Under the pieces are notes generated by a model that saw only the letters and a list, made by a program, of their open reading frames with translations, did no database searches and was not told where the DNA came from. Positions 426-24,187 of a DNA stretch of 26,195 nt are shown in pieces. The DNA comes from a virus. Each line of letters begins with the position of its first letter. Position 1 is the first letter of the stretch. The DNA is taken from positions 1 through 26,195 of IMG/VR virus record IMGVR_UViG_3300044801_000304, one strand, 5' to 3'. Both the position numbers and the translations under genes were made by a program.

Positions 426-455
426 AGGGACGGGGTTTCAACCCAGAAAAAAGTG

Positions 456-1945: not shown

Positions 1946-3156
1946 AAATCAAGCTCGTCACCCTTTACGACGAAAAGCTCAAGTCCATCGGCGATCTTTC
2001 CAGCCGGGTCATGGCGGAGTATTGCGCCAGGCGCGGATATGAATTTGTCTGCTACAAACACCTTCCCGACAAATCGCGCGGGGCGGTCTGGAACAAGATT
2101 CGGGCGATCCAGCAGGAGCTTCCTTCCTGCGACTGGTTGTTGTGGATGGACGCGGATTCCATTCCTATTACGCATGGTTTTTCTTTGGAAAAACTGATTG
2201 AAAAAGCACCGGACAAGGATTTGATGTTTTCGAGCGATGGCAAGGGGCCATGCGCTGGTATTTTGCTGTCCAGGAATTGCGCTTGGTCGGTTCAGTTTTT
2301 CCAAACCGCCTGGTTTTGCGGCCAGATGGCATCGGGAGTCCATTTTGAACAGGACACGATGCTTGCCCTGAGCGGCACATTCCCTTCAATCAATGACAGG
2401 ATGTTGGTTTTACCTGAAAGTTTTGTGTGTAATCGGTGTAGCGAGTTCCTGCCGGATTGTTTCGCAATGCACTATTATTCATCGAATTTTTCATCAAACA
2501 AAAAATACCTTGCCTCAATCGCCCGAAGAATGGGAATTTTCATTTCAAGCGGCTGGTCGCCGTCCGCGCATCTGGATTTGAAGATTATAACGGGGGATGA
2601 TGCCTTTGGGCGTTTACAAAATGAATCGGCAGGATATGAGGTTTATGAGATGGGGGTCGAATCGAATCTTCCACAATTGATTCGCAAGGCGTTGGAATTA
2701 CAACATCAGTTCATCGTTTACATGGATGCGAACGCTTTCGCAATCCGAAGATTTGATGAAGTGAACACATTGGATTACGACGTTGGAATGACTATGCGGC
2801 GCAAGGAGGAACGAGGGGCAACCAACCGGCCAATGATGAACGGATTCCTTGACGCCGGGGTTTTGTTTTTCAATTACACGCCAGCCGCATTCAAGTTTCT
2901 TGAAATTTGGGAATCGGAACTTGCCTTAACGCCGTCCGATCAAGAGGCATTGAACGCCGTGGTTTTGAGGGCAACCGACCTAACAGAATATGACAAGGTT
3001 TTTCCCTTGGAGGGAATACGCATCAAGATATTCAAATGCGAAGAATATAATTTCTCGCGTTGGCCGCAGGAGCCATTGCCGGAAACAAGAATCGTTCAGT
3101 GCAATCGAATCGAAGCATTGGAAGATTGGGGAAACAGAAAATGGCAGGACAAATGA
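1942..3156 (+). CDS. Two-domain glycosyltransferase
   Basis: The 404-residue product appears to hold two GT-A type domains in tandem. The N-terminal half has a strand followed by a DxD motif (WMDADSIPI, D70-A71-D72), as in galactosyltransferase-like GT34 proteins. The C-terminal half (about 235-404) has a second set: VYMDANAFAI (D262-A263-N264), LDAGVLFFN (around 303-311) and SDQEALN, typical of GT8-like or nucleotide-diphospho-sugar transferases. In the second motif the final Asp is replaced by Asn, so one domain could be altered in metal binding. The ATG at 1942 overlaps the methyltransferase stop (ATGA); an upstream in-frame GTG at 1900 would need a 45-base overlap and is less likely. Confidence 0.72.
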   Translation: MKIKLVTLYDEKLKSIGDLSSRVMAEYCARRGYEFVCYKHLPDKSRGAVWNKIRAIQQELPSCDWLLWMDADSIPITHGFSLEKLIEKAPDKDLMFSSDGKGPCAGILLSRNCAWSVQFFQTAWFCGQMASGVHFEQDTMLALSGTFPSINDRMLVLPESFVCNRCSEFLPDCFAMHYYSSNFSSNKKYLASIARRMGIFISSGWSPSAHLDLKIITGDDAFGRLQNESAGYEVYEMGVESNLPQLIRKALELQHQFIVYMDANAFAIRRFDEVNTLDYDVGMTMRRKEERGATNRPMMNGFLDAGVLFFNYTPAAFKFLEIWESELALTPSDQEALNAVVLRATDLTEYDKVFPLEGIRIKIFKCEEYNFSRWPQEPLPETRIVQCNRIEALEDWGNRKWQDK

Positions 3157-3320
3157 AACTGAAAACATCAATACCGATGACTGGTTGGAAGCGGGAGTTC
3201 CAAGACGGGGAACTAATTCCAATCAAAGGACACGGATTTTCCGTTGTCAAAATTACCAAGCGTGGTCTGGCTTTGCGTCACGTCAAATCACCATCACATT
3301 CGGATACTCACCAATCCTGA
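3153..3320 (+). CDS. Small hypothetical protein after the glycosyltransferase
   Basis: A 55-residue product starting at an ATG that overlaps the preceding stop (ATGA, 3153-3156). It carries a compact pattern, ELIPIKGHGFSVVKITKRGL, similar in style to small phage proteins that form one beta-rich domain. No function is recognised. Its last 27 bases overlap, in convergent orientation, the 3' end of the terminase gene on the minus strand. The overlap junction and coherent beta pattern support expression; short length keeps confidence moderate. Confidence 0.55.
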   Translation: MKLKTSIPMTGWKREFQDGELIPIKGHGFSVVKITKRGLALRHVKSPSHSDTHQS

Positions 3321-4901
3321 ACCATTGAATGATTGTTTTGCTGTTCGTATCGCATAGATGGAATCCTGAATCTCTTGCCAGCATTCGGCGGTCAAGCCGT
3401 ATCCCAAAGAATCCATCGCGTGTTTATATCTGGATTGAACGGGAATTGAATCTGGCGTCTTACTGATATTTGCGTTTTCAAAACACTCAATCAATTTTGG
3501 ACATCTTGCTCCTGAGATTTTAATTCTTCCTTGAACCAAAAGTTTTCTTATCAAACGTATTCGATTTCCCACGCTTCCACGGCCCTTATCAACTCCGACA
3601 AGTTTTATGCGTCCGTTACTTACTGCAAAAATCTCATCAGATACACTTCGATTAGCTATGGATTCCTTAAAATCCAATGCGCTTCTATCGGCCCAACAAA
3701 CCCATTTCAACTTGTTTCCAACTTCTTTTTCCCAGAAATCCATTCGCTTGCAGGTCAATATGGTAAATTCCTCAACCGATATTTGTTCATCAATAAAGGC
3801 CAACTCATCAATCACATTAAATACGCTTGTGTCCTGTTTTTCTTGGTGCAGGATTAACTTTTCAAGAAAATACATTGAAGGATTAGAGCCGCCCGCGTCG
3901 AAGGACATTATCAATTCGGAACACCCCTCGGTTGGAATGATTATCTCCGGCTCTCTGTCGTTTAGATCACCGACAACATGAGATGCGCGTGAGAATTGTC
4001 TGGTGAACAGTCCGTTTTCAACGACTCTAACCCATTCACCAAGCGCAAAGCGCGAATAAAGTGAAGGGCTGTAACTCCATTCACTTCGGAGAACTGCTTT
4101 TTCATTATCTGAAACATACGGATTGTCGTCCATTGTCCAATGGGTTAGGTGAAGCCACTTTTGATATATTTTCTCGTCATCACTTGGCTTGTCTGAAATT
4201 CTCAATTCGTAAAATATATGATATAGGAAGTGCGATTGCCCGGTTGATGCAGGATTGCAGTCTATTAAAAACACATATTCATCATCAGGCCGGTTAAACC
4301 CGCGCAAGGCCAACAATAAAGTAGAAAAGGATTTCCGTTCATAAAATTCAGCAGCTTCCGACCAATAAATCATGGATAGATAACGCGATTTGTATTTATC
4401 AATCTCTCGTTCGTCATCCAGCGAATCCATTTCAAGTTCACTGATTCCACCCGGAGGCATGACAAATTCCCCATTTTCAGGGTTGTGTTTCATTATTGCT
4501 TCATTCCCAAACTTATTGATAACTGCACACATCATTTTCTTGGTCGCTCCGTGTATCCGAGGTTCGCCTCCATTTTTCCACGGGAAAGAAGAACCTTTTG
4601 GTGCCCATTTCATTCCGAAGTCTTGAGCAATAAAAACTGGAAGTACTTGCTCTGTTATTTCATTCCATACGCCAGAAGTTGCCCCCTCTCCTTGTGTTTT
4701 GCATAAGATAAGCACAGAAGCCCCGTTGACATTCCACAGATGGTCAATAATTGCAACAATTCCAGCCGCAGTTTTCCCGGATTTTCTCATGCCAGACATG
4801 AGAATAATCTTTTTCTGCCCATTTTTTTGGTGACATAATTTGACAAGGGCTTCCTGTTTTGGAGCTAAATCGGGTTTTCCGTTGATAAATCTGAATGACA
4901 T
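3294..4901 (-). CDS. terL: Phage terminase, large subunit
   Basis: The 535-residue product is the DNA-packaging motor. The N-terminal ATPase has a Walker A loop GMRKSGKTA (residues 37-45), a Walker B strand ending IYWSE with the likely catalytic Glu182, and a coupling segment FLIDCNPASTG. The C-terminal RNase H-fold nuclease has the expected spaced acids: D335 (SFDAGG), D405 (WADRSALD) and D497 (HAMDSLGYG). Length fits the family (about 450-600). It docks on the portal and cuts concatemeric DNA during head filling. It lies on the minus strand while the portal and head genes lie on plus, so it must have its own promoter in the 114-base divergent gap. No small terminase is obvious next to it. 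Confidence 0.92.
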   Translation of the reverse strand: MSFRFINGKPDLAPKQEALVKLCHQKNGQKKIILMSGMRKSGKTAAGIVAIIDHLWNVNGASVLILCKTQGEGATSGVWNEITEQVLPVFIAQDFGMKWAPKGSSFPWKNGGEPRIHGATKKMMCAVINKFGNEAIMKHNPENGEFVMPPGGISELEMDSLDDEREIDKYKSRYLSMIYWSEAAEFYERKSFSTLLLALRGFNRPDDEYVFLIDCNPASTGQSHFLYHIFYELRISDKPSDDEKIYQKWLHLTHWTMDDNPYVSDNEKAVLRSEWSYSPSLYSRFALGEWVRVVENGLFTRQFSRASHVVGDLNDREPEIIIPTEGCSELIMSFDAGGSNPSMYFLEKLILHQEKQDTSVFNVIDELAFIDEQISVEEFTILTCKRMDFWEKEVGNKLKWVCWADRSALDFKESIANRSVSDEIFAVSNGRIKLVGVDKGRGSVGNRIRLIRKLLVQGRIKISGARCPKLIECFENANISKTPDSIPVQSRYKHAMDSLGYGLTAECWQEIQDSIYAIRTAKQSFNGSGLVSIRM

Positions 4902-5296: not shown

Positions 5297-5506
5297 ATGA
5301 CAAACTACGAAATATCCACCATTCGTCTTAAAAGACACCCACTGTTGAGAACGATATTTGATGCGATTTGTAATTATTCGGTCGCAAGAAAATGGAAATA
5401 TAAACCACGCCAATTTACAGCCATTGGGAATTTCAACCCTCGTCGACTCCTTGAAACTTATCGCCACAACAAACAGTATATGGATTTCGATTATCCCCAA
5501 CAATGA
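5297..5506 (+). CDS. Small basic hypothetical protein before the portal
   Basis: A 69-residue, strongly basic and aromatic product (RLKRHPLLRTIFDAICNYSV near the N terminus). It starts at ATG 5297, two bases after the previous stop; a GTG at 5291 that overlaps that stop is an alternative. Its own stop overlaps the portal start (ATGA, 5503-5506), which supports it as a real coupled gene. Function unknown; the positive charge would suit nucleic-acid contact, which is only a guess. Confidence 0.5.
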   Translation: MTNYEISTIRLKRHPLLRTIFDAICNYSVARKWKYKPRQFTAIGNFNPRRLLETYRHNKQYMDFDYPQQ

Positions 5507-7848
5507 TTTCCAAAAAGACCATCAAGAAGTACAAGCTGGACACGGCTTCGCTCAAAGTTTTGTTTACCGCCGACAAACCCAAGAAGGGTGTCAGGGCGTT
5601 GGTAGAACTAATTGCCGACCGCCAGCGCGAAGGCAAGGAACGAAGCCTTTTCGATTACAAACAGTACGCAGCGATTGACATGGCGTATGACGCGCCGCTT
5701 AACAATGCCACATCGTCAATCCTACGCAGCATCCTTGACAAAGGCGGGACAGAAAAGGAAATCTTCGGGGCACTCCAACATTGGGGCTTGAATCCAGATT
5801 GTCTTTTTTGCGAGACGAAGATGGAAAATGGCAACTCGAAGTGGACTCCGAATTATCCAATGCTTTACAATGTCACGATCCCGCTGGTGCGGGCATATCT
5901 GACCATCCGGCACGCCACAATCTTCAATGAACGAAATGTTTCTCCGTTGTTCGATTATCAGCCGAGCAAATACAACGCGGAGAACCGTGTTTTGTGCGAA
6001 ATTTGGACGGATTTGATTGAATCCATCGCTACGGATTATGGTTATTCCTCAACTTTGCGCGATTTCATTTTCAATCCCCTGATGTATTCATTGGCGCTTA
6101 AATTCCCAATGGAAAGCTGGGATGTTCAAGAGCAAGAAGGCGCGGACGGCGAGGAATACATTGAAAAAGAGGGCATTCGATACGTTGTCCCGCACATCAC
6201 TCGGATTTATTACGACCTAAATTTTCCGCTGCACACAATCAATACAGGGACGGGCTGTTCCTTTGCCGGGTATTGGACAATCATGCGATGGGGCGACGTG
6301 GAGAGCAACGAACTCTACTGGAATACCGAACATGTTCCACATGGAACAAATTGGCTCGACCCCAATGCGGCATGGGCTAACTACTTCCAACAGGTTTACC
6401 CCTGCACCCTTGATTTTCCCATATTCACCAAAGGCCGCAGAAAAGAGACTGACCGGGAGAAGATGATTGGCTTTTACGGCAAGAATGATTACGACAGCGC
6501 GTTCTTTGTCGGTTATCAATTTGTTCAACTTGTGCCCAGCGAGTGGGATTTGGGCGAATATGACCACAAAGTCTGGATGAAGTTCACCATTGGGGCAGAC
6601 GACGTTATCATGTTCGCCGAGACATTCGGTTACAGGCCGGTGGACTATATCGGATACGATGCCGACAGCGGGCGCGGCAGAAACCCAAGTCTAGCACAAG
6701 AAATCCAGCCGTCACAGGATATGGCGAGCAACATATTATGCCAGTATTTAAGCACCATCAAACGCAACCTCGCCAACATCACTTTTTACAACACGGAGGC
6801 GGTTGACACAGAGCAAATCAAGGAATTGAATCGGCGCAGCCAGTCTCAATACCAGCAAATCAATTTTATCGGTTTTGACGCCTACAAGATGGAAAAGGCG
6901 GGCGTGGATTTGGCAAATGTTTTCAAAAGCATGACGTTTCCCTATGCGAACACGGCAGAGATTCTGCAATCATTCAACACCGTGCTTTCAATTCTTGAAA
7001 GAACACTGGTAATGTCGGCTCAGGAAATTGGCGCGGCGGCGTCACACCAGCAAGGCAACAAAGAGATTGAGATTATCTCTGGCAGCACAAGTAATCGCGT
7101 TGCTTACACGGCTTCATTTGTGGATGAGGGCATTGATGCGTGGAAGCGGCAACTTGTGGAGGCCGCGCTTTGCCACATGACTGCCGATGAAGTTGAGGCT
7201 CAGATTTCAGCCGATATTCCTGACTTGGACAAACATTTGGAAGAACTCGGATTTGAACGCAAGGACGAATCACCATCAATCGGTCAAAAGACCATCACAG
7301 TGACAGGCAAATTATCCAAATTGAAGCTGACTCAGTTTGTTTCCCGGAGAGCGGACAAAGACCGAAAGACAGACATGGGCGCGGCGCAGGCGATGAATCA
7401 GGCAATCGCGGAAATTTCCAGAAACCAAGTGCTGTCTGGGGTTGTTGATCCAACTTCGCTGATAGAACTTGCCGAACTCGCGGCGAAACTGGCTGGCGCG
7501 GACGATGATTTCAAGCTGCGGCTCAATCAGAACGCGGTAGCGAGCGACCAGTTGCAGAAAGCCATCCAACAAATTGAGCAAACCATCATGCAACAGGTCG
7601 CCAAAACGGTCACTCAGCCAGCGGCGCAGGCATTGGCTCAAGAATCAGCAAAGGTTGACGCCATTGAAAAGAACGTAGAAACATTGACTGGGATCGTTGA
7701 GAATTTGAAGAAAGCACTTTCGCCCGGTCAGCCCTCCCCCGCTGGTGACATACCCACCGCGCCGACCGCAGCCCCGCCATTGCCGCCACAAAGTACGCCA
7801 CAACCAACAACGATACCCGTCCCTCCAAATGGTCCACCAATCCAATAA
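5503..7848 (+). CDS. Portal protein (podovirus-like)
   Basis: The 781-residue product has the size and layout of large podovirus portals. It has an alpha/beta N-terminal wing region and a long central body with an SLAQEIQPSQDMASN-type segment near residues 390-405 that matches helices of the stem/clip region. A helical, Ala/Gln-rich C-terminal half follows, with coiled-coil potential at about 650-740, then a Pro-rich tail (about 745-781). The portal forms the dodecameric ring at one capsid vertex through which the terminase pumps DNA. Its place between terminase and scaffold/capsid genes supports the call. The Pro-rich tail overlaps the start of the next gene by 20 bases. Recognition is by size, order and general pattern rather than a single catalytic motif. 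Confidence 0.8.
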   Translation: MISKKTIKKYKLDTASLKVLFTADKPKKGVRALVELIADRQREGKERSLFDYKQYAAIDMAYDAPLNNATSSILRSILDKGGTEKEIFGALQHWGLNPDCLFCETKMENGNSKWTPNYPMLYNVTIPLVRAYLTIRHATIFNERNVSPLFDYQPSKYNAENRVLCEIWTDLIESIATDYGYSSTLRDFIFNPLMYSLALKFPMESWDVQEQEGADGEEYIEKEGIRYVVPHITRIYYDLNFPLHTINTGTGCSFAGYWTIMRWGDVESNELYWNTEHVPHGTNWLDPNAAWANYFQQVYPCTLDFPIFTKGRRKETDREKMIGFYGKNDYDSAFFVGYQFVQLVPSEWDLGEYDHKVWMKFTIGADDVIMFAETFGYRPVDYIGYDADSGRGRNPSLAQEIQPSQDMASNILCQYLSTIKRNLANITFYNTEAVDTEQIKELNRRSQSQYQQINFIGFDAYKMEKAGVDLANVFKSMTFPYANTAEILQSFNTVLSILERTLVMSAQEIGAAASHQQGNKEIEIISGSTSNRVAYTASFVDEGIDAWKRQLVEAALCHMTADEVEAQISADIPDLDKHLEELGFERKDESPSIGQKTITVTGKLSKLKLTQFVSRRADKDRKTDMGAAQAMNQAIAEISRNQVLSGVVDPTSLIELAELAAKLAGADDDFKLRLNQNAVASDQLQKAIQQIEQTIMQQVAKTVTQPAAQALAQESAKVDAIEKNVETLTGIVENLKKALSPGQPSPAGDIPTAPTAAPPLPPQSTPQPTTIPVPPNGPPIQ

Positions 7849-9512: not shown

Positions 9513-11246
9513 ATGCCAAATACGCCGCCGACCCCATCTCAAATAAACAGCATCTTCGAGCGGTGCTCTCCCGCCATCCGATCTAACATATCGGAATGCG
9601 GATCGGTAACGCTCTGCGACAACCTCAAGCCCGAAACGATAAACGATTTGCAGGATATTTATGAGAAGGATGGCGAATATCGTCTCCTGAATCATTTGCT
9701 GATGACGCATTTTACCATCAAGGCGTGCGGCACGGTGCAGCACGGGATGCGCGACTTCTTCATGGCGAACCTGCGAACCACGCGCAAAAGCCAGATCAAA
9801 TTTGACCAGAACGAGCGCGCGATGACCAAGGTGGCTCCGTTCATCATGGCCAATCAGAAGATTCCGAGAAACAACATCTCCTGGCAATTCACGGCTGGCA
9901 GTGGAAATGAGGCCGCTTGGACGGGAAGCGTGGTAAGCCCCAGCGGGATTCCCGCCGACATCCGCTATTTTCCGACCGGAATGGTGGTCTGGATTATTGG
10001 CATCGGCAATGGAGGAATCAAAATCAAGACGCAATGGACGGTGGCCAATGCCGTGTTGAATTCTGGCGGCGGTTCGGTTGAACTGACGTTGACGGGACAA
10101 AACCTGGGTTCATTTTTCCCCGCCGAGGAAAGCGATTTGCCAGTCACCGGAGTTCTTTATCGCGGACTTGCCAATGTTGGCAAGACGGAAAGCTATTGCG
10201 ACGACACGCCGGGACTGATTGACAACAAATACGTCCCCTTCTGGATGCAGGACGTGCGCTGGACAATGTGCGATTCTGAATTGTTCCACGAATGGCAGGA
10301 CTTGGTTTTGGAAAACAACCCGCTTTATCGGGCGTATGAATATCTGCCCGAAGTCGAGAGGATGCGGCAGATGGGTGAAGATTTTGAAGTCCGCCTGTTC
10401 AACGCCCTCTGGTTTCAGGGGGCGCTCAATGACAAGCAAAATCTGACCGAATACGATCAGTTGCCTGAAATCAGCAACTTCCTGTCCGATACCGGCCTCG
10501 GCGTCGAGGGTGGGCGTTGCTTTGGTCGCAAGGCCAATGCCATCGGCTGGCTGGAACAGTTGCGCGAATGCGACCGTTGGTTTGATTGCCAAGGCGCGCA
10601 ATTGAACATTTACAGCATCTTTGATGCGGTCTATGCCATGAGCCGAACTCGTGCCGGCGTTGGTTCGTCTGCGGCCAAGCGTTTTGACGTGTTCACCGAC
10701 GGCACAACCGCCGGGGCCATTGAGCAGGCGTTCATCGGCTATTATGGCGTGAAGTTCGGCGGCAAGGATAGCTATGTTATGAATGAAATGCAGTCCGGCG
10801 AAAACAATGAGCTTGGGCTGGTGTTCAACTCGTATCGTCTGGACGGCAAGAATCAAGGCGTCGTGTTGAACGTCATCAGTGATTGGGCGTTTGACGACAC
10901 TCTCTCCGACTTCTCGGCAATGAGCTTGGACGGTGCCGGTCGCACGCTGATGTTCTTGGATATGACTGGCATTTACATGCAAGTCATCGAATCCGGCAAA
11001 CAGGTCAATCACACGGGCGACTTGAAGGATTTGGTCGCGGTTGATTCCAGTTATCGTTGCGTGATTGAAACCTACGCGATGGACACGACCATCAACTGGC
11101 TCAAATACACGGCGGTTGTCGAATGTCCGGCGGCAAGTCTGGTGATTGACAACTTTAGTTCGGCGGTTCCACTGTTTGCTGCGGCGAACATGACTAGGCG
11201 TCCGAATTACATTCCGGGCACCGTGATGACGCCGTATGCGGTTTAA
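9513..11246 (+). CDS. Major capsid protein (inferred)
   Basis: The 577-residue product follows the scaffold candidate and is closed by a strong terminator, as expected for the most abundant head protein. It shows a helical N terminus, then beta-rich segments with an aromatic/Gly pattern, consistent with an HK97-like fold, with a mid-chain segment (RAYEYLPEVERMRQMGEDFE) that could be the spine helix. It is larger than typical HK97-fold capsids (300-400), so an inserted domain is possible. Start ATG is preceded by A/T-rich cattATG. No motif proves the fold; the call is by gene order, size and composition. Confidence 0.72.
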   Translation: MPNTPPTPSQINSIFERCSPAIRSNISECGSVTLCDNLKPETINDLQDIYEKDGEYRLLNHLLMTHFTIKACGTVQHGMRDFFMANLRTTRKSQIKFDQNERAMTKVAPFIMANQKIPRNNISWQFTAGSGNEAAWTGSVVSPSGIPADIRYFPTGMVVWIIGIGNGGIKIKTQWTVANAVLNSGGGSVELTLTGQNLGSFFPAEESDLPVTGVLYRGLANVGKTESYCDDTPGLIDNKYVPFWMQDVRWTMCDSELFHEWQDLVLENNPLYRAYEYLPEVERMRQMGEDFEVRLFNALWFQGALNDKQNLTEYDQLPEISNFLSDTGLGVEGGRCFGRKANAIGWLEQLRECDRWFDCQGAQLNIYSIFDAVYAMSRTRAGVGSSAAKRFDVFTDGTTAGAIEQAFIGYYGVKFGGKDSYVMNEMQSGENNELGLVFNSYRLDGKNQGVVLNVISDWAFDDTLSDFSAMSLDGAGRTLMFLDMTGIYMQVIESGKQVNHTGDLKDLVAVDSSYRCVIETYAMDTTINWLKYTAVVECPAASLVIDNFSSAVPLFAAANMTRRPNYIPGTVMTPYAV

Positions 11247-11788: not shown

Positions 11789-11934
11789 TGAGTGAAGAAC
11801 TCCAAATTGCTCCTGAGAAACAGGGCGTTTTCAAACGCATCCTGATTGCGCTGATGGCTGCCAAGCGCGCCGAACGGATAGGGTTAAAGATAGTCCGGTG
11901 TTCGTATTTCAGGAATCCAATCCAAATCACATGA
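11788..11934 (+). CDS. 48-residue coupled small protein
   Basis: An ATG at 11788 overlaps the preceding stop (TAATG) and its own TGA overlaps the next gene's ATG (ATGA, 11931-11934). The product starts MSEELQIAPEKQGVFKRI and is amphipathic and basic (ILIALMAAKRAERIGLKIVR). It could be membrane-associated or a small virion factor, but no family is recognised. The exact fit between two overlapping junctions is the main evidence that it is translated. Confidence 0.55.
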   Translation: MSEELQIAPEKQGVFKRILIALMAAKRAERIGLKIVRCSYFRNPIQIT

Positions 11935-14222
11935 GCCTTACTTTCCTCGAATTGAAAAATGAGAGTCGCCAACTTCTCTGGCCGGATTTGGAGGCTGAAA
12001 ATCTTGTTGATGCTCACGATAGGTTTTTCAACGATGCACTCTGGGATATTTCAAAGAATGTCGAATGCGCGCAGTTTGGAAATTTAAATTTGTACCCCCA
12101 GTGCAGTTCTTACTTCAACTGCGGCATGACTGTTCTTCCGGCTCCGCGTGGAAGGATTCTGAAAGTTTACACGATTAAAGGAGGAACCACGACAACCCCG
12201 ACACCATCCGCTTCCGCGCCAGTTGGAAATCCCATTATTGTCACGGCTGGTCAAGTCATGGGTGAACAGCAATTCACTGTCCCATTTGGAAAATGGAGTC
12301 CAGGCGGTGGGCCTCCGCTGCTTCAGGGCGATCCGGTGGCTGTAAATGTTTGTTCGGTCCCGCTGGATGGACAGTATATCGTAACGGTTTCGCAAGCATC
12401 TCCCTATTGGAATGTTGCTGTTCCAAATTCTCCGCAATACATGGTCACACAGGTCAATTATACGGATGTCAGCGGGAACCCTCAAACAATCCAACCCGCC
12501 CCAAACATATTCCCCAATACGCCCTCAAATACAGGCTCTCTGACAATTTCAGTTAAGGGCGGAACGACCATAAGCGCGGTTGCCACCCCGGTTTGCGTCC
12601 CGCCGACCGATGGTGAAATCAATGTTGATGTGAAGGTTGTGGCGAATGCCAACATCTCAGCCCCCCCGAAAACTCCCGCCACTCCGACCAATGGCTCGGT
12701 AATAAGCGTCTCCGCTGATTGGTGCTCGAAGGTGTTCTACGACCAAGTTGAATACTGTCACATCGAGGAATATGTCAAACTCTCGCGCCATTGCGCGACT
12801 CCCAATTCCATCTTCGCCGGTGCGCTGATCTTCAACCTGTTTGGCTTTGGTCATTGGAGAAACAAGCGCCGGTATCCATGTCCGACCGATGCCGGGCTTG
12901 AGTCGTTGCCATCACTGCCACAAGGATTTCATTATCCGCAAGCTTCAACTGATGCCGGCGGGCGTTCGCGCGGTGGAGTCTGGGCGCTGTATCGCGGACG
13001 CATCTACATTGCTCCGTGGATTGAATCAGACGAAACGGTGGTGGTAGAATGGAACGGAATCAAAGATCAATGGTCAGATAACGATTTAGTCGAGGATGAC
13101 TCAAAGTTTCGTCAAGCGGTGCGATTGAATGTGGCCGTTCAGCATTTTACGCATTACGAGCAAGACCAGCAAAAGTTGGTGATTCTTGAAACTCAATGGC
13201 GGGAAGCCTTGCGCGATTTGATTCACGAATGCAGGGAACAAAATCGGATTCGGTCTTGCAGTGAGGCGGGTGGAAGCGGTTCGGAGGCCAGGGGAATTGG
13301 CACGGCTGACATTGCCACATCATTATATCAAAATGAGGCTCAATCTTACACGGCCAGTTGTCCAGTTGGACAAACTGGAACTGCGGTTACGGTTACGATT
13401 CCTGCTGGACAAGTTGGAAGCGCGTTATCCGTTGCAGATGCGAATGCAACGGCATTGGCTCAAGCTGTGGCAGATGCTACAAGCCGTTTGTCATGTTCGG
13501 TTGCCCCAACGATATTTTACAACGTGGCCGTCTATGGCCATGCAAGTTGTCCGGGGGCTTCCGGTGATACGCCTGCCGCATCTGGAAATGAAGTGACAGT
13601 CGCTATTGCTGCCAGACTTTATTCTTCATCGCTTCCCAATGGACAAGATGTTGCAAATGCGGCTGCTCAAGCAGAGGCGGACAGGCGGGCGAATCTGCAA
13701 TTGGTTTGCACGTTCCACAATTCTCCCCAAAGCGCAAAGGGCAGTTGTCCTAGCGGGACGGCTGGAAGCGACCAAACCGCAACTGTTTTGGCTTCCGACC
13801 CCGATTGTGACGCGACATCACAGGCTGCGGCGGATGCGTTGGCTCAAACCAAAGCGGCGAATCTGTTGGCGGCACAACTTCTGACTGTTTGCATCGGACT
13901 TCCGACTTATTTGATTGGAAATGAGGCAAAGACATATACGATAACGAGAACCCTTAGTTGTCCGTCTGGTTATTTATTTCCTACTGGCTATCCTACTTTT
14001 AATTGCACGTCAAACATTCCCGCAAACTGGATAACGGCACTTGTGACTTCGGATACCGAATTGGCTGTAAGATCGTCGCTTAATCAGCAGGCGCAGACGG
14101 CGGCTCAAACCGACTGCGACAATCAATTTAACTTCGCCCAAGCTCAATATAATGCAGGGTGCAGAGCCACTGGTGGTGGTGGGCAAATACCAGGGGGATA
14201 TCAAGGGCCATACGCAGGATGA
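11931..14222 (+). CDS. Head-tail adaptor-like protein with DUF5977-like repeats
   Basis: The 763-residue product has three parts. The N terminus (1-80) starts with a helical adaptor-like segment (SLTFLELKNESRQLLWPDLE). A beta-rich insertion with Pro/Thr linkers follows (about 85-265). The segment at about 268-450 includes a pattern (GRIYIAPWIESDETVVVEWNG, then DDSKFRQAVRLNVAVQHF) like podovirus adaptor or tubular proteins that join portal to tail. The C terminus (about 465-763) holds about four degenerate repeats with a spaced Cys-Pro and Ala-rich helix (ASCPVGQTGTAVTVTIPAG in the first), matching the DUF5977 style. ATGA overlaps couple it to genes on both sides. The adaptor role is inferred from position and the middle segment; the repeats probably project outward. 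Confidence 0.65.
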   Translation: MSLTFLELKNESRQLLWPDLEAENLVDAHDRFFNDALWDISKNVECAQFGNLNLYPQCSSYFNCGMTVLPAPRGRILKVYTIKGGTTTTPTPSASAPVGNPIIVTAGQVMGEQQFTVPFGKWSPGGGPPLLQGDPVAVNVCSVPLDGQYIVTVSQASPYWNVAVPNSPQYMVTQVNYTDVSGNPQTIQPAPNIFPNTPSNTGSLTISVKGGTTISAVATPVCVPPTDGEINVDVKVVANANISAPPKTPATPTNGSVISVSADWCSKVFYDQVEYCHIEEYVKLSRHCATPNSIFAGALIFNLFGFGHWRNKRRYPCPTDAGLESLPSLPQGFHYPQASTDAGGRSRGGVWALYRGRIYIAPWIESDETVVVEWNGIKDQWSDNDLVEDDSKFRQAVRLNVAVQHFTHYEQDQQKLVILETQWREALRDLIHECREQNRIRSCSEAGGSGSEARGIGTADIATSLYQNEAQSYTASCPVGQTGTAVTVTIPAGQVGSALSVADANATALAQAVADATSRLSCSVAPTIFYNVAVYGHASCPGASGDTPAASGNEVTVAIAARLYSSSLPNGQDVANAAAQAEADRRANLQLVCTFHNSPQSAKGSCPSGTAGSDQTATVLASDPDCDATSQAAADALAQTKAANLLAAQLLTVCIGLPTYLIGNEAKTYTITRTLSCPSGYLFPTGYPTFNCTSNIPANWITALVTSDTELAVRSSLNQQAQTAAQTDCDNQFNFAQAQYNAGCRATGGGGQIPGGYQGPYAG

Positions 14223-17200
14223 ACTTTGACACACTTAACATTGCGGATTGTATAATCCCCGCCGGTAGCGGCGGCAGCGGCGGCAGCGGCGGTGGACAGC
14301 CACCTGACCCGCGATGTTCCGATGCCGGGTTTGCGGCTTCAAATCCATCAATATGCGGTTCGTTGGCATATCTGATTATCAAACCCGGAATCGCGCTTGT
14401 CTGCAAACTTGGTTCAATCAATTTCAGTGTGTTCCTGTATCAAAACGGCATCGAAACCGAAGTAACGGACGGTTTGACGTTCACAAGTTCGGATGAAGAT
14501 ATTCTGGCCATCGGAGTCCATACTGGGGCGGCAACTGGACTGGCCGAAGGCGATGTTAATGTGACGGTCACACGCAACGGTTTGACAGCTACATCGCTTA
14601 TCACCGTACTTGTCGCGGAATGTGGCAGTGGATGTGAATGTGATGCAATCCACGTCAAGACATCCATTCTGATTGACGATTCAAAATCAATGGGTTTGGC
14701 ATTCGGTGGCGGCTATCAATCTCGGCTGGCTTTTGCAAATGCTGTGGCATTGGATTATGCTGACAAGATAATTCAAACATGTGGAACCTCAGAATGTGTG
14801 AACCTGATACCGGACGGGGCGATGTATGGAGGCAATGGTTCATCAAGCTATGTGTATTTGCTGGTTTCCGTTGGAATCGTAACAGTAGGAAACATTTATC
14901 AGATAACTTGGGGAGCCAACGATAGCGTGTTGCAAAACGATCCAAATTCTATTTCAAGTCCCGGAGTTGGACAAACCAGCACTTTTGTTCCCGGCGCACA
15001 GTGCGAACTTATTGGAATCGCAAAATCTCCCGTCACCGCCACCATCTGCAATCCAAATACTGGAATAGGTCCCGTTCCAAAAGACTCAATCAAAGTCTGG
15101 TCATTCTCGGATGTCGTTGACGAAATCTCAACAGGTTATTTGACGGACACAACAGAACTTGCAACTGAAATCAATGGTATCACCCAAACACAGGATATGA
15201 CAGATTTGGGCGCAATTCTGTTGGCGGCGGTAAATGACATGATTGCGGCGGCGGCTGATGAAAAGGTGATTGTGCTTATCAGTGATGGAGAGCAGACGGT
15301 TACAACCGATGTCCAACCGATTCTTGACACGGCGACCTTGTTCAAGGCGGCGGGTGGAATCATAATCTGCATCGGATTGCGCGCAAGTGGTACAGGTTAC
15401 GACTTATTGAGCCGTATTGCGACCGGCGGATTCTTCCTAAACGCCTTTTCAACCAACACACAGGATATACTCGACGGTCTGAATTATCTGAAATCCATTC
15501 TGTGTGCCGGTGATTGCATGACAATAGCTGAAACGACCAATTCAGGCGCATTGGATTATTCATCATTCATCAACTGGGAAGTAATTGCAGGACAAGTTAA
15601 TCTGGTTGGAAATGGCTTCCTAGATTTTCAGCCGGGCAATGGACTTTATGTGGACATGATGGGCGGGGCGGCTGGGACAATACGCAGCATAGACACCTTT
15701 TCGCTTGTGGCGGGACGCACATATCGCATTTCATTCGAGGCCGCGGGAAACAGCCGGCTAGACACTCCGGGCGCAAATCAAAACATTTTGGTTTCCATTT
15801 TGAACTCAGACCCGACCGTTCCATCAAATTTAGCGACGATCTTCTCTCATGTGGTTTCTCCTAATTGGGACGACCCATTTACTGCTTTTTCATTTTCTTT
15901 TACTGCTGCATTTGATGTTGACGTGAAAGTTTTGTTTCAACAGCTTTACGACACGTCCTTTACGGGAGAATGGCATGGGAATCTGCTTGACGATATTAAG
16001 TTTGAAGAAGTGTCCTCTTTTACCACCTTGTTGACAGATAATTTCGATGGAGAGAATCCGACTTCTCAACCCGGAAATGCCTATGGCGCATATTGCACTT
16101 CGGAAGTTCCGGGGTTACAATTACAAGACCCAAATCCATTGCCGAATGTTGAGGTCGGAACCAACCCCCCACCGACAACGACTTACACGAGCACCAAGAC
16201 GGCTTGTGCGACATGTCCAAGCGGCAACATCAGCCTACTTACTCCTCGCGTTGTTATTCCGGCCACTTACGACGATACATCTACCCCCGGAACTATTGTG
16301 GAAACTTACCTAAGCGCAGTGGTGGCGTCCGGGTATTCTGTTGTTGTCTTTCAAGATGTCACCCAAAATTGGATTGGGCCGCAATCTTTCATACTTTACG
16401 GTTCTAACGACGGAATCAATTGGGTTATTCTGGATACACAGACGGGTCTTTCTTGGGCGAATTCTGCGTCTGAAGTAGAAAGAGATTTTTCGATTCCACT
16501 TACGGCTGCTTACACCCAATTTAAGATGACTACTAATTCTTCGTTATCCATGTATAGAAGGTTTAGCTTTGGAATTAATGGAAGTTATGTAAATGTCCTC
16601 GGTCCGACTCAGGTTTGTCAATCCGCCACCGCTGCGAGCCAAATCAGCCAAGCCGACGCCGACAACCAGGCGACCGCAGCGGCGTTGGCGCTGGCACAGG
16701 CCGGCCTCAACTGCGTCCAGGCATTCACATCCACGCAGCAATTCACAGCGAGTTGTCCTGCCGGCTCACTTGGTTCTTCCGTTACAAGGTCGGCTTCGGC
16801 TACCAGTTTAATCAGCCAAACGGATGCCGACAACATAGCATTAGCGGCGGCTACGGCAGCGGCCAATGCTGCGTTGTTTTGCAGTGATTCAAACAACAGT
16901 CAGAAAATCACCATCAATGACAACGCAGTGGCGACACCATATCCAAGCGTGAAGTTTGTGAGTGGACAGACGGGTTTGATTTCCAAGGTAACGGTTTCAA
17001 TCAACGGCCTTTACCATACATGGCCCGACGATATAGGCATGGTCTTAATGAGTCCTGCCGGGACGCTGGTGTATTTGATGGGGCGCTGTGGCGGGGGATT
17101 TCAGGTTGGAACACCAACTGCCGGCATCAATCTTGTTTTTGATGATTCGGCGGCAACTAATTTGCCCGCCACGCTTATTGCGGCTGGCACATACAAACCA

Positions 17201-17392
17201 ACCCTTTTGGGCACTCCCGTAACGCTGCCGCCTCGACCGCCATGTCCGGCTGGAACAATTCAATCCACTTTGGCCGCATTTAATGGAGAAAACCCGAATG
17301 GCAGTTGGGCGTTGTATATTAACGACAATGCCGCCCTCAACGTCGGGACGATTCTAAACGGTTTCGACCTGACAATTACGACAACGATGTAA
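14219..17392 (+). CDS. Large multi-domain adhesin with VWA and P domains
   Basis: The 1057-residue product appears to be a tail adhesin. A Gly/Ser linker (about 15-25) is followed by a bacterial Ig-like segment (55-138). A von Willebrand A domain follows (about 145-430) with a complete-looking metal site: D153-x-S155-x-S157, Thr328 and D356 in SDGE. A DUF642/carbohydrate-binding-like beta sandwich lies at about 436-600, and a discoidin (F5/8 C)-like segment (FILYGSNDGINWVILDT) at about 700-795. Two DUF5977-like repeats lie at about 796-890. A P/Homo B-type domain spans about 895-1057 (GLYHTWPDDIGMVLMSPAGT and NPNGSWALYINDNA). ATG 14219 overlaps the previous stop. Role inferred: metal-dependent binding to host surface glycan or protein. 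Confidence 0.78.
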   Translation: MNFDTLNIADCIIPAGSGGSGGSGGGQPPDPRCSDAGFAASNPSICGSLAYLIIKPGIALVCKLGSINFSVFLYQNGIETEVTDGLTFTSSDEDILAIGVHTGAATGLAEGDVNVTVTRNGLTATSLITVLVAECGSGCECDAIHVKTSILIDDSKSMGLAFGGGYQSRLAFANAVALDYADKIIQTCGTSECVNLIPDGAMYGGNGSSSYVYLLVSVGIVTVGNIYQITWGANDSVLQNDPNSISSPGVGQTSTFVPGAQCELIGIAKSPVTATICNPNTGIGPVPKDSIKVWSFSDVVDEISTGYLTDTTELATEINGITQTQDMTDLGAILLAAVNDMIAAAADEKVIVLISDGEQTVTTDVQPILDTATLFKAAGGIIICIGLRASGTGYDLLSRIATGGFFLNAFSTNTQDILDGLNYLKSILCAGDCMTIAETTNSGALDYSSFINWEVIAGQVNLVGNGFLDFQPGNGLYVDMMGGAAGTIRSIDTFSLVAGRTYRISFEAAGNSRLDTPGANQNILVSILNSDPTVPSNLATIFSHVVSPNWDDPFTAFSFSFTAAFDVDVKVLFQQLYDTSFTGEWHGNLLDDIKFEEVSSFTTLLTDNFDGENPTSQPGNAYGAYCTSEVPGLQLQDPNPLPNVEVGTNPPPTTTYTSTKTACATCPSGNISLLTPRVVIPATYDDTSTPGTIVETYLSAVVASGYSVVVFQDVTQNWIGPQSFILYGSNDGINWVILDTQTGLSWANSASEVERDFSIPLTAAYTQFKMTTNSSLSMYRRFSFGINGSYVNVLGPTQVCQSATAASQISQADADNQATAAALALAQAGLNCVQAFTSTQQFTASCPAGSLGSSVTRSASATSLISQTDADNIALAAATAAANAALFCSDSNNSQKITINDNAVATPYPSVKFVSGQTGLISKVTVSINGLYHTWPDDIGMVLMSPAGTLVYLMGRCGGGFQVGTPTAGINLVFDDSAATNLPATLIAAGTYKPTLLGTPVTLPPRPPCPAGTIQSTLAAFNGENPNGSWALYINDNAALNVGTILNGFDLTITTTM
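14264..14290 (+). repeat. Three 9-bp GGCGGCAGC-like tandem units
   Basis: Three near-identical 9-base units (ggtagcggc, ggcagcggc, ggcagcggc) encode the Gly/Ser-rich linker near the adhesin's N terminus. Copy-number change would keep the frame and alter linker length only. Confidence 0.6.
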
Positions 17393-17398
17393 ACCAGT

Positions 17399-19264
17399 AT
17401 GCCAGATGCTTACAAAACGATTTCCCTGACACCGCTGACTGGAATTTTCGACGCCAGAAGCAGTGTTGACGCCGAACCGTCCGGCGCTTTTGTCTGGAAA
17501 CAGGATTTTGAAATAAGTCCTGATGGAAAACTTCGGCAGGCGCATGGATTTTCAAAGCCTTACAATATCAATCCACTTGTTCAGAATATCGGCGGCGTGC
17601 CCTGTCCCTATGCAAATTGGGATTGGCACAATCAAGGAGTGGCCGTGGCGAGCCGCGAGCCGCCAACCATGTTGTTTGCTTCCACAACAAACGATGGTGT
17701 CAGGAAGCTCGTTCTGGGAACAAAAACCCGACTCATGTTGATGGATGAGTCGGCGGGTTCATGGTCGCAACTTAACCCGTCTGCACTTGGAAATGATGGA
17801 ACGACCAATCTGACACAAACCAGATTTCACGCCGCCGAATTGCAAAACAAGGTGGTCTTTACAAATGGACTAGACGATGTTCAATACTACGATTTGATTG
17901 CGGCAACATTTGGGCCGATACCCGGTCTGGCAACAGCATCGGAAACTGGCGGGACAGTCACACAGGCAAAGGTTGTGATTCAATGGCAGGGTGTTGTTTT
18001 CCTGATGAATGTAGTGGAAGATGGGGTTCGCGTTTCCAGCCGAATCAGATGGTCGGACTTGAACGATGTTCTCAATTGGGGTGCTGGTTTATCTTCAATT
18101 TCAGATTATCAGGATTTGGATTACGGTGAGGAAATCTTGGGTGCTGTTCCTTTGGGCGGTGCGCTTATTGTTTTGACAAATCAAAGTCTTTGGCGTTGCA
18201 CTTTCTCGATTGATTCTGGAAGTCCGGGCGATCCGCTTGCCGTCCCGCCGGTCCTTGCAATTGCCCCATCGGCTGTTTTGAATTGCGTAAAGTTCTACAC
18301 TGACCCGAAGAATCAAAGCCGTTGTTTGGCTTATCCAAATTCCTTGGTTTCGACTGGCTCGGAAATATATTATGCCGGTTCGGATGGAATATATGAATAC
18401 GATGTTTACAAATTGATGCCCGATATAATCGAATGGATTCATCGGGCAGATGTTTTGGTCTTTGACGACCCTGCAATATCGGTCACGGCAATTGACAAGA
18501 CTTGTTGCAACTCTCCCGTTGCCGAATATCGTTCCGACACAAAAGAGATTCACTTTTCGTGGCCGTCCCCGGATTTGGTTCAAGTTGGCTCTGATAGCTG
18601 CGATGCCATCCAGCCGATTCAGGGCAGTGGCATCAACAGGCATACGCTGGTAATAAACACCGGCTTTACCACTTGTGATTATCGGGAATATGGCAGCACG
18701 GCAATGGTCAATTTCAAATCTGATGTTGGTTCGGAGGCCAGTTGTAATCAGTCCATTTTGTTTCTTGGAGCAAACGGAACGGATTTCTGTTTGAAACAGT
18801 TTGGGGTTGGTTATGCGTGGGAGATTTACGATCCGACGATTGATTCCTATGCGATGACTGGATATAGTCCATTGTTGAGGGGCGTTTTTCCTTTTGGAAC
18901 TTTTGACAAAGACAAGTTTTTGAAAAGTTTCCGAATTGATTGCATTCCAGATGGCGACACCGGAACGGTGTTCCGGCTTAGAATTGGAACGTCTTACAAG
19001 GCCGTGAATCCAAATTCAAACGATGCCAGTTGCGGGATTCTCTGGACACAGTTTTCCGACAAGGCGATAAAATGCCCAGACCAGGCAACGCTCACGGCAT
19101 ACGCAACAACAAAAACGAGGCCCACCGATGATTTTAAGTGGAGTTTCCTGCTGAGGGGACGACTGCTTTATTACGAAATTACCATCGCCATGCCCGACGG
19201 CGCTGCGGCAAATTCTGGTGGTGTTTCGTTGAGCCGGTTTGATGTCCAAGCGTTGCAGGTTTAG
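17399..19264 (+). CDS. Tail nozzle / head-closure-like protein
   Basis: The 621-residue product is beta-rich throughout and resembles podovirus tail tubular or nozzle proteins of the T7 gp12/P22 gp10 type. Segments such as RIRWSDLNDVLNWG, GGALIVLTNQSLWRCTF and EIYYAGSDGIYEYD match the repeated blades of these proteins. These proteins seal the portal channel and extend the short tail. The ATG lies six bases after the adhesin stop, so the two genes are probably cotranscribed. It is the last gene before the 1.3 kb gene-poor island. Family assignment is by pattern and order. Confidence 0.7.
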   Translation: MPDAYKTISLTPLTGIFDARSSVDAEPSGAFVWKQDFEISPDGKLRQAHGFSKPYNINPLVQNIGGVPCPYANWDWHNQGVAVASREPPTMLFASTTNDGVRKLVLGTKTRLMLMDESAGSWSQLNPSALGNDGTTNLTQTRFHAAELQNKVVFTNGLDDVQYYDLIAATFGPIPGLATASETGGTVTQAKVVIQWQGVVFLMNVVEDGVRVSSRIRWSDLNDVLNWGAGLSSISDYQDLDYGEEILGAVPLGGALIVLTNQSLWRCTFSIDSGSPGDPLAVPPVLAIAPSAVLNCVKFYTDPKNQSRCLAYPNSLVSTGSEIYYAGSDGIYEYDVYKLMPDIIEWIHRADVLVFDDPAISVTAIDKTCCNSPVAEYRSDTKEIHFSWPSPDLVQVGSDSCDAIQPIQGSGINRHTLVINTGFTTCDYREYGSTAMVNFKSDVGSEASCNQSILFLGANGTDFCLKQFGVGYAWEIYDPTIDSYAMTGYSPLLRGVFPFGTFDKDKFLKSFRIDCIPDGDTGTVFRLRIGTSYKAVNPNSNDASCGILWTQFSDKAIKCPDQATLTAYATTKTRPTDDFKWSFLLRGRLLYYEITIAMPDGAAANSGGVSLSRFDVQALQV

Positions 19265-21521: not shown

Positions 21522-24187
21522 TGATGGTGTGCGGCACAGATTTTATGAAAAAAATACTCGCTTCTGTTTTTCTAGCAACCCTTACCCTGTCGTTATTTGG
21601 ACAGGTTAAACAGTCCGGCTGGACCGGCACAACCAATCCGGCCACCGCCCGATCCTCGTTGGGTTTGGGAACCGCTGCCACGCACGATGTTGGAGATTTT
21701 CCAACGACCAATACTCTTATAGCCAATGCCACCACCTCGGCAACGGCGACGAATGCACGGCAGTTACTCGACGCTGCTGGGAACGTCATCACACATTCGA
21801 TCATAACATCATATATTACGAATACAGTTGCCGCCCTGGACTATTCCCGAATTTGGGGAACCAATCCAGCCGCACCTATGTATGGTGGAAATGGCTGGTC
21901 TTACACAAACAGCGGAGGATATTTTACTAATGCTGCACTATTCGTAATTGGTTATACCAACTCGGATGCTGCATGGGAAAACGGGCCGATGCCTTTTTCT
22001 AGTCTTAATGTGGACAACACCGGGCCAGATCATTATATATTGGCAAGCGCCCCCGCCAATGTGTTAGCATTGCAAAATGCAGCGTGGAGTCCAAACAACG
22101 TTCTGGGTACTTATTATACCTTCTTCTTCACAAATTTGGTGACTATTATCACCACCAATGTCGTTTCTTCTTATACCGGTACCGCGTCTCAGGCGACGAA
22201 TGCCACCACCGCCACCACTGCGGTAATGGCGACGAACACGCCAAACACCGTCATTATTTGCAGTGGCAGTCAGATGTCTCAGCCTTGGTTTTATGATGAC
22301 TTTTCAACCAATAAATTTTATGTAGGTCCAATCGCCAGTCTCGGCGTGATTGCAAGTTCCGGTAGACCGAAATGCTCATGGACGGTTGGCCAGACTGGCG
22401 GTGCGGTTATTAACAATCAAGAGTATATTCCTTATGTCTATAATGTGCGGGCTAACTTGACGCTTAATACAAACCTGCCTGTGTCGGGCACCAATGCCGC
22501 AGGGTGGGCGTTGGTCGTTTATGGACGAGTTCCCAGATATTCAATTACAAGCGACACCGCGGATTATGGCGATGGTGCTGGACTTATATTTGGTTTTTCT
22601 ACGAACGCTAGCTATGTTCTAACGATTGGTGGTTCATACGCTACAGGGTGTGGGATGTACCTTTTCTCTCCATCTGGCCGGACCTATTCTTATGAAGATT
22701 GGTGGTTCACGCCGGACACGGAAATTGGGCTTTGCACAGAACTTCTTACCAATGGGTTTTGCCTGAAAATACAGGGTGGAAACTTTGATGACCAAGGTTG
22801 TGTTCTTGGGTCACAAAACTGGTTTGAGATTTACAGATACCAGACAAACAATGCCAACTGGTTGACCAATTTAGCCGCGTATGTTGGGGCGGAGTGGTAT
22901 AATGGTATTGCGATTTCGCGGGTTGAGATTTACTCGAATTGGGTGGACAGCGGAAGCGCGTCGTTGGTTTATGATGGCATGGACTATTATTGCAAGGCCC
23001 ATGTGCCCGATATTATCTACGACACTTTCGGCAATCATGTGTGTTCGTTTGAAAGCCATTCTTACACCAACGGTGACAGCGGTCCGGTTTCACAGACATG
23101 GCTTTCGATTCAAGCCGCAAATGGAATGTGGTCATCCCCCACTCTAGTTGCTGGAAGTGCTACTAATGCTGTGTATAGTACGGCCACCAATGCTGCGTGC
23201 CTGTCCATGTTGAATGGGCAGCTTGTTGTTTTGTTTCAACACACAACTGGCAATTATGTAACCAACTATTTTACATCTTACAAGGCTGTGTATATTACCA
23301 ATGGAGCAATCACACTCGGAGCGCAGCAGGAGTTTAACGTCACAAATCTTTCCGCTCTTGTTCCCACGCTGTTGTCGGCAACGAACATTGCCATTTGCAG
23401 CCCAATTATCACTGCGCCGGATGGATATTCTGCGGTATTTGCGCCCATGCTCAACACCAACGGACAGGAAAAGTTTGCATATTGCCTTCGATGCGCACCG
23501 AACGACACTAATTGGTGTGCTTATCAAATCAATAATCAAGATTGGGGAACAGATTCTCAAGAGGGCTGCCTGTTTATTATGTCCGATGGCAACTTGGGCG
23601 CAGTAGAACGTAAAGTCACAGGGGCGGCTCAATGGCAGTCCAGCACCAACAGTGGTTTAAGCTGGGGCGCGGGGCTTGTTTGTCCCTGGAGTGCTTCTGA
23701 TATGCGTCCATCTGCCTGTTCTTTGCCTGGTGGACAGGTGGCTTTTGTTGGAGCAGACAACCCCGCCCAAGCAGATAACGGACGTTATATGGGATGTATA
23801 TGGATTGCACAAGTAACCGTCACAAACGGCATTGTATTGCAAAGTAAGATACCAACCTATGGGATAACGAATACTTATTCCTTTAACTATCCTCGCATTA
23901 TTTACCATAATGGAAACTTGGAAACGGTGTGGGCTGAGAATTTTGGAGCCATGTACACCATTTGCAGCGGCATACATTTTAATTCACAGCCGCTTGACCA
24001 GTCATGGAGGATTGCAGCTATCAACGCTAAAAAACAAGCCTTGTCGCGTGCTGACCGACAGGGGGCTCCTGGCCCGACGAACATTCCGCCATCGGCGCTC
24101 ACTCCGCAATTCTCAACGAACATAACCGTCGCGGGTGTTGGAACATTTCGTTTCACCAACGGAGTTTTGGGAGGATTCACACCATGA
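21521..24187 (+). CDS. Sialidase-like tail fibre with N-terminal signal peptide
   Basis: The product is 888 residues from ATG 21521, or 880 from ATG 21545. The second start begins with a clear signal peptide (MKKILASVFLATLTLSLFG). The segment after it contains the tail-fibre phrase NPATARSSLGLGTAATHDVG. From about residue 260 the chain is beta-rich and resembles a sialidase-type propeller: HVPDIIYDTFGNHVCSF, TWLSIQAANGMWSSPTLV, and a degenerate Asp-box S-T-N-S-G-L-S-W at 708-715 where Asn replaces the usual Asp. It is rich in Thr and Asn. Role inferred: binding or cutting host glycans. A signal peptide on a fibre protein is unusual; the TAATG overlap supports 21521, the signal peptide supports 21545. 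Confidence 0.72.
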   Translation: MMVCGTDFMKKILASVFLATLTLSLFGQVKQSGWTGTTNPATARSSLGLGTAATHDVGDFPTTNTLIANATTSATATNARQLLDAAGNVITHSIITSYITNTVAALDYSRIWGTNPAAPMYGGNGWSYTNSGGYFTNAALFVIGYTNSDAAWENGPMPFSSLNVDNTGPDHYILASAPANVLALQNAAWSPNNVLGTYYTFFFTNLVTIITTNVVSSYTGTASQATNATTATTAVMATNTPNTVIICSGSQMSQPWFYDDFSTNKFYVGPIASLGVIASSGRPKCSWTVGQTGGAVINNQEYIPYVYNVRANLTLNTNLPVSGTNAAGWALVVYGRVPRYSITSDTADYGDGAGLIFGFSTNASYVLTIGGSYATGCGMYLFSPSGRTYSYEDWWFTPDTEIGLCTELLTNGFCLKIQGGNFDDQGCVLGSQNWFEIYRYQTNNANWLTNLAAYVGAEWYNGIAISRVEIYSNWVDSGSASLVYDGMDYYCKAHVPDIIYDTFGNHVCSFESHSYTNGDSGPVSQTWLSIQAANGMWSSPTLVAGSATNAVYSTATNAACLSMLNGQLVVLFQHTTGNYVTNYFTSYKAVYITNGAITLGAQQEFNVTNLSALVPTLLSATNIAICSPIITAPDGYSAVFAPMLNTNGQEKFAYCLRCAPNDTNWCAYQINNQDWGTDSQEGCLFIMSDGNLGAVERKVTGAAQWQSSTNSGLSWGAGLVCPWSASDMRPSACSLPGGQVAFVGADNPAQADNGRYMGCIWIAQVTVTNGIVLQSKIPTYGITNTYSFNYPRIIYHNGNLETVWAENFGAMYTICSGIHFNSQPLDQSWRIAAINAKKQALSRADRQGAPGPTNIPPSALTPQFSTNITVAGVGTFRFTNGVLGGFTP

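Follow-up and report, generated by a model that had tools for sequence, protein, structure and literature searches.

Several bacterial and phage systems resemble the protein described here. Pilus-tip adhesins, such as Mfa5 of Porphyromonas gingivalis and the streptococcal proteins PilB and PitA, combine a VWA core and MIDAS residues with further domains. In bacterial fibrillar adhesin-like proteins, adhesive VWA domains and DUF5977 or Ig-like stalk domains are joined in one long protein; a survey of these proteins places VWA among the adhesive domains and DUF5977 among the stalk domains (PMC8286594). Lectin-like modules are also found in podoviral fibres and spikes, including T7 gp17 and DEV gp53. 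The T7 fibres dock where the adaptor and the nozzle meet (PMC6872550), and the fibre collar of phage DEV touches the adaptor, which bears an outward lectin-type insert (PMC10925440). Finally, a VWA-like region is present in a phage tail protein, Rhodobacter phage RcTitan gp22.

The protein under study, P0001, is encoded in a virus record of 26,195 bases (IMGVR_UViG_3300044801_000304), the whole of which is hereafter called the window. Like the pilus-tip adhesins, P0001 has a VWA core with MIDAS residues and additional domains, but it is phage-encoded in a neck operon, with no pilus genes seen adjoining, and it harbours DUF5977, discoidin-like and P domains where the former have pilin domains. 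According to the classes of PMC8286594, it unites an adhesive domain (VWA) and a stalk domain (DUF5977) in one protein. In contrast with the bacterial fibrillar adhesins, its gene is part of a phage structural operon, and neither a secretion signal nor a cell-wall anchor was recognised; by eye, its N terminus (MNFDTLNIADCIIPAG) shows no obvious signal peptide. P0001 shares lectin-like modules with T7 gp17 and DEV gp53 but differs from them by its VWA/MIDAS domain, and its sequence was not found to resemble any known fibre anchor. The gene order, together with the conserved N-terminal half of the protein (see below), nevertheless suggests a docking site as for these two proteins.

The resemblance to RcTitan gp22 is more distant. 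The Pfam VWA match of that protein is weak and below the cut-off, its gene adjoins the tape measure gene at a tail-tip position, unlike that of P0001, and a profile-profile comparison between gp22 and the P0001 family was not significant. RcTitan gp22 (L046 17177-18904) is DUF2460-like, harbours a DVSGSM motif and is annotated only as hypothetical. Together with other BFVD entries named VWFA, gp22 shows that tailed phages can have VWA-like regions. The first-pass annotation called a VWA domain unusual for a short-tailed phage neck/tail operon; this is broadly right but, given the weak match in gp22, not absolute.

We analysed the genetic environment of P0001 (Table 1). The intact ORF has the coordinates given in the first-pass annotation, and its start codon overlaps the stop codon of the upstream gene as ATGA (14219-14222), which typically signals translational coupling. 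From gene order and position, that upstream gene, conserved in 9 phages, would encode the head-tail adaptor. It contains a DUF5977 match (2.5e-11), and profile searches yielded neither a PDB match nor an informative PHROG match for it. The neck protein encoded downstream also matches a 'phage stabilization protein' in MW202710. The probable major capsid protein was assigned by gene order, size and conservation because family and PDB searches gave no informative match, and the probable portal protein likewise lacks a family match. Among the terminase, portal, capsid, adaptor and neck genes, informative family matches were obtained for the terminase and the neck protein only; PDB profile searches with the adaptor, neck and capsid proteins returned nothing significant. 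Further downstream, the window codes for another long protein (21542-24187) with a weak BNR-like match. A related record of 70.9 kb (G008) harbours a 2991-aa ORF (L048 3236-12211) whose PHROG matches are of unknown function only (phrog_3170, phrog_21376). It is possibly an ejection-type protein, which agrees with a short-tailed phage; the phages that carry P0001 are likely to be short-tailed.

Table 1. Features of the P0001 locus, in window coordinates.
Feature	Coordinates	Strand	Basis or remarks
Terminase large subunit	3294..4901	-	Pfam Terminase_3 1.4e-7; phrog_2 1.6e-14
Probable portal protein	5503..7848	+	Size, position, conservation in related phages
Probable major capsid protein	9513..11246	+	Conserved in 8 phages; between scaffold-like and adaptor genes
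Proposed head-tail adaptor (gp4/gp11-like position), C-terminal DUF5977 repeats	11931..14222	+	Open from 11898
VWA/MIDAS multi-domain protein (P0001)	14219..17392	+	Intact ORF, ATG 14219, stop 17392, 1057 aa; Pfam; orthologues
Ig-like Big_2 domain, residues ~49-134	14363..14620	+	Pfam, sub-threshold in P0001
VWA domain, residues ~141-436	14639..15526	+	Pfam; profile matches; AlphaFold model
Predicted MIDAS, D153-x-S155-x-S157	14675..14689	+	D153 and S157 invariant, 155 S/T in 11 orthologues
Insert of ~97 aa inside VWA domain, residues 188-284	14780..15070	+	Window protein only
Predicted MIDAS, T328	15200..15202	+	Invariant in 11 orthologues
Predicted MIDAS, D356 (ISDGE)	15284..15286	+	Invariant in 11 orthologues
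DUF642/choice-of-anchor-C-like beta-sandwich, residues 440-613	15536..16057	+	TIGR04362, DUF642, pLDDT
DUF5977 unit 1, first half, residues ~656-670	16184..16228	+	Motif YTSTKTACATCPSG
Discoidin-like (F5/8 type C) domain, residues ~671-798	16229..16612	+	Nested in DUF5977 unit 1
DUF5977 unit 1, second half, residues ~799-832	16613..16714	+	Motif SQADADNQATAAA; Pfam DUF5977
DUF5977 unit 2, intact, residues ~836-888	16724..16882	+	Pfam, best stretch 839-883
P/Homo B-like domain, residues ~895-1055	16901..17383	+	PF01483
Neck/nozzle protein (P22 gp10-like)	17399..19264	+	phrog_3287 virion structural protein 1.3e-26

Viral VWA-MIDAS genes found in the literature are mostly CobT- or MoxR-associated (PMC8651126, PMC7911831, PMC7824862), and P0001 might similarly work with a MoxR/CobS-type AAA+ chaperone as its VWA partner. 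However, its gene neighbours are neck genes, no adjoining AAA+ gene was recognised, Ig-, lectin- and stalk-like domains are ill-suited to a cytosolic co-chaperone, and the match to the NCBIfam cobaltochelatase entry is far below the cut-off. Given the gene context, this explanation appeared highly improbable and was dropped.

Other observations were made on the window and related contigs. The terminase genes of L005 (2079-5327) and of L002/L004 (L004 176-3184) harbour an intein-like segment directly after the Walker A SGK motif (...SGKC ... HNT...); that of the window is without such a segment (SGKTAAG). By eye, the ORF at 3-425 (+) of the window, which begins with MKITDQYLAGFFDGEGCI, looks like a LAGLIDADG homing endonuclease. 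Also by eye, glycosyltransferase- and methyltransferase-like ORFs are found beside structural genes in the window (453-3156, +), in L005 (19607-21680, -) and in several other relatives.

Related contigs were found through terminase, capsid and portal queries only; single-protein scans with the VWA and neck proteins revealed no relatives. A scan with a five-row alignment yielded six further VWA orthologues, giving a set of 11 sequences (the window, L005, L036, L016, L035, L033, L038, L039, L040, L041 and L042), from which L043 was left out, as it resembles the DUF642-like part only. The list is possibly incomplete, because the scans rely on short peptides that are conserved. All related contigs that extend to this part of the operon have the VWA gene, in line with the neck-operon placement of the first-pass annotation, and the four contigs without it (L003/L011, L002/L004, L013 and L014) stop short of that part. 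It directly follows the proposed adaptor gene in 10 of the 11 contigs, two ORFs separating them in L041, and the gene that comes next in the five closest genomes encodes the gp10-like neck protein (phrog_3287). In L039 (6001-11407), a Pro/Thr-rich stretch of the orthologue is followed by what seems to be a break into three overlapping ORFs; a frameshift or an error of assembly could explain this, or the gene may truly be split.

In searches for other relatives, a capsid scan of bacterial genomes identified no prophage, and a scan with the VWA protein yielded only DUF642-type proteins of one planctomycete and one alphaproteobacterium. The DUF642-like sandwich has close cellular relatives in these bacteria, the former belonging to Sedimentisphaerales (L044 2250-2897 and L045 1131-18043; 48% and 46% identity over the best segments); the planctomycete protein has a PEP-CTERM-like tail. 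Among ~50,700 phage records, tblastn searches with the window protein and two VWA domains found no VWA relative, and the matches obtained in phage records with the L038 and L040 proteins were confined to the discoidin-like and neighbouring C-terminal parts. The VWA region of the window protein has no PHROG match, even at E 1.

Three Pfam signatures are above their curated cut-offs in P0001, namely VWA (3.6e-7), DUF5977 (PF19404; 2.8e-7 over two stretches, 31.5 bits for a gathering score of 25) and P_proprotein (PF01483; 1.3e-6, 28.8 bits for a gathering score of 21). The first-pass annotation, which listed VWA, discoidin-like, DUF5977-like and P domains with a C-terminal P/Homo B domain, was right on the list of domains; the discoidin-like match is below the Pfam cut-off in P0001 itself and above it in the L005 orthologue (2.8e-10). 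Our analysis adds to that list a Big_2 domain, a DUF642-like sandwich, an insert in the VWA domain and the splitting of a DUF5977 unit by the discoidin-like domain. Big_2 and DUF642, like F5/8 type C, are below the Pfam cut-offs in the P0001 sequence. Big_2 exceeds its cut-off in the L040 and L042 orthologues (up to 3e-6), and a profile of this region (A7) matches Big_2 structures and the phage tail tube protein gp13 (8zdj). VWA_2 matches in the orthologues are as strong as 8.5e-13. The beta-sandwich that follows the VWA domain corresponds to the NCBIfam entry TIGR04362 (choice-of-anchor C; 1.3e-9, 38.5 bits for a cut-off of 120) and to DUF642 (0.001, 19.4 bits for a cut-off of 27), and it is modelled as a beta domain at high pLDDT.

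The C-terminal part of the protein has a nested organization. A motif scan located the two halves of DUF5977 unit 1 at residues 656 and 810, ~120 aa further apart than in an intact unit, which suggests from sequence that the discoidin-like domain splits this unit in two. Several orthologues also appear to harbour a split unit with a nested discoidin-like domain. The F5/8 type C match (PF00754) has an E value of 0.03, or 0.0018 when the region is searched alone; this part of P0001 resembles phage 'tail' or 'carbohydrate binding' proteins and matches the 'tail protein' phrog_17517 at 9.8e-7. The PF01483 match reaches 2.6e-8 when residues 891-1057 are searched alone, and the P domain is above the cut-off in L005 (7.6e-7), L031, L032 and L038. 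These data suggest that DUF5977 is a building unit common to the neck adaptor and the proposed appendage, and that lectin-like domains have been inserted in stalk units.

The VWA domains of the 11 sequences were aligned (26-60% pairwise identity). D153, S157, T328 and D356 are the same in all of them, and position 155 is Ser in 8 and Thr in 3, so that the complete metal-ion-dependent adhesion site (MIDAS) that the first-pass annotation had read from these residues is retained in the family as a prediction. Invariant columns number 17 of the 196 in the VWA core; on these columns, and with the relatedness of the sequences ignored, at least 4 of the 5 preset MIDAS positions would be invariant by chance with a probability of ~2e-4. 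Three Cys residues flanking the domain, C141, C429 and C433, are also invariant (11/11) and could form a disulphide. Mussel PTMP1 has a similar C-terminal Cys pair, which aligns with the cysteines flanking the P0001 domain. Profile matches of the VWA domain include PTMP1, collagen VI, Mfa5, BatB and integrin alpha-X; one solved PTMP1 entry bears the title 'zinc occupied MIDAS motif'.

An AlphaFold model of residues 1-613, built with the 11-sequence alignment, has a mean pLDDT of 70.7, with values mostly of 75-95 in the VWA core and the beta-sandwich (mostly 75-93 in the VWA core alone). The model predicts the VWA fold, with strong structural matches. With VIA-align, its VWA domain superimposes on Mfa5 (6to1) with a Z score of 22.8 and an rmsd of 2.2 over 180 residues at 26% identity; the Mg-bound integrin CR3 I-domain has a Z score of 19.8, and many VWA chains are at Z near 20. 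Foldseek matches are PilB, Mfa5, BatB, PTMP1 and the anthrax toxin receptor VWA domain, and the pilus protein PitA is also among the structural matches. The best of these matches are pilus-tip VWA adhesins. By fold, the closest neighbours are adhesive tips and receptors of the cell surface, in which the MIDAS metal binds an acidic group of the ligand. The insert in the VWA domain of the window protein is missing from all 10 other orthologues; it is modelled at pLDDT <50 and has no family match and no significant PDB match.

The core of P0001 closely resembles the metal-dependent domain of integrins and pilus tips, and the protein therefore probably helps the phages to grip their hosts. The nearest folds, the fibrillar adhesin classes and the docking of the T7 and DEV fibres together favour an adhesin docked at the neck. 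With reasonable though not high confidence, we propose that P0001 is a fibrillar-adhesin-type host-attachment appendage at the adaptor/nozzle junction, with a metal-dependent VWA head and lectin-like modules. Whereas the domains, the predicted VWA fold, the invariant MIDAS residues and the conserved gene position come directly from the analysis, we infer its location on the virion, its docking site, its metal binding and its host-envelope ligand. The conserved N-terminal end of P0001 would dock where the head-tail adaptor joins the nozzle, the usual place of podoviral fibres and spikes. Through a divalent metal in its MIDAS, the VWA domain would then engage an acidic group of a protein or glycan on the cell surface. 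The DUF642-like sandwich and the discoidin-like and P domains might add carbohydrate or protein contacts, and the DUF5977 units may act as spacers between the binding modules. P0001 might even be an integrin-I-domain-like, metal-switched adhesin: once the MIDAS has bound a host ligand, a conformational change could be relayed to the adaptor/nozzle, and genome release would be coupled to adsorption in a metal-dependent manner. We regard this extension as improbable.

Residues 1-613 are more conserved than the region 614-800, where the discoidin-like modules vary among orthologues. By analogy, this could be as in fibres that have a constant anchor and variable binding parts. However, the VWA half lies within the most conserved part of the protein, which counts against the adhesin reading, and because this conservation is strong, a role in structure or assembly is possible. 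Nor did a trimeric fibre signature, such as a coiled coil or a beta-helix, happen to be noticed. P0001 could be a structural collar or an assembly clamp, whose VWA/MIDAS domain binds the adaptor or the nozzle in a metal-dependent manner and stabilises the neck; the C-terminal modules or another protein would then contact the host. An internal partner would account for the conservation of residues 1-613 and of the MIDAS in 11/11 sequences, the DUF5977 units common to the adaptor and the VWA protein suggest one assembly, and the long protein with the weak BNR-like match could be the receptor binder. We nevertheless consider such a role rather unlikely, as the VWA domains nearest by fold belong to adhesive tips or cell-surface receptors, P0001 harbours several lectin-like modules, and a ~97-aa VWA insert restricted to a single phage better fits a surface that faces the ligand.

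If P0001 is an adhesin at the neck, its ligand might belong to the habitat rather than to the host. It would then bind extracellular matrix, mucilage or particles and hold virions near hosts, as could be conceived from the profile matches to collagen VI and to the mussel byssus protein PTMP1; adhesins that bind matrix or surfaces commonly contain Ig-like and VWA domains (PMC8286594). This appears distinctly unlikely, since fibres for the host receptor usually sit at the adaptor/nozzle junction.

We did not find MIDAS-type recognition described for phages in the open-licence literature that we searched. If P0001 is on the virion, it would represent a phage attachment protein built on an integrin- or pilus-tip-like MIDAS domain, and adsorption should depend on Mg2+ or Mn2+ via the MIDAS residues named above. 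The VWA gene is also a marker for a phage lineage without cultivated relatives.
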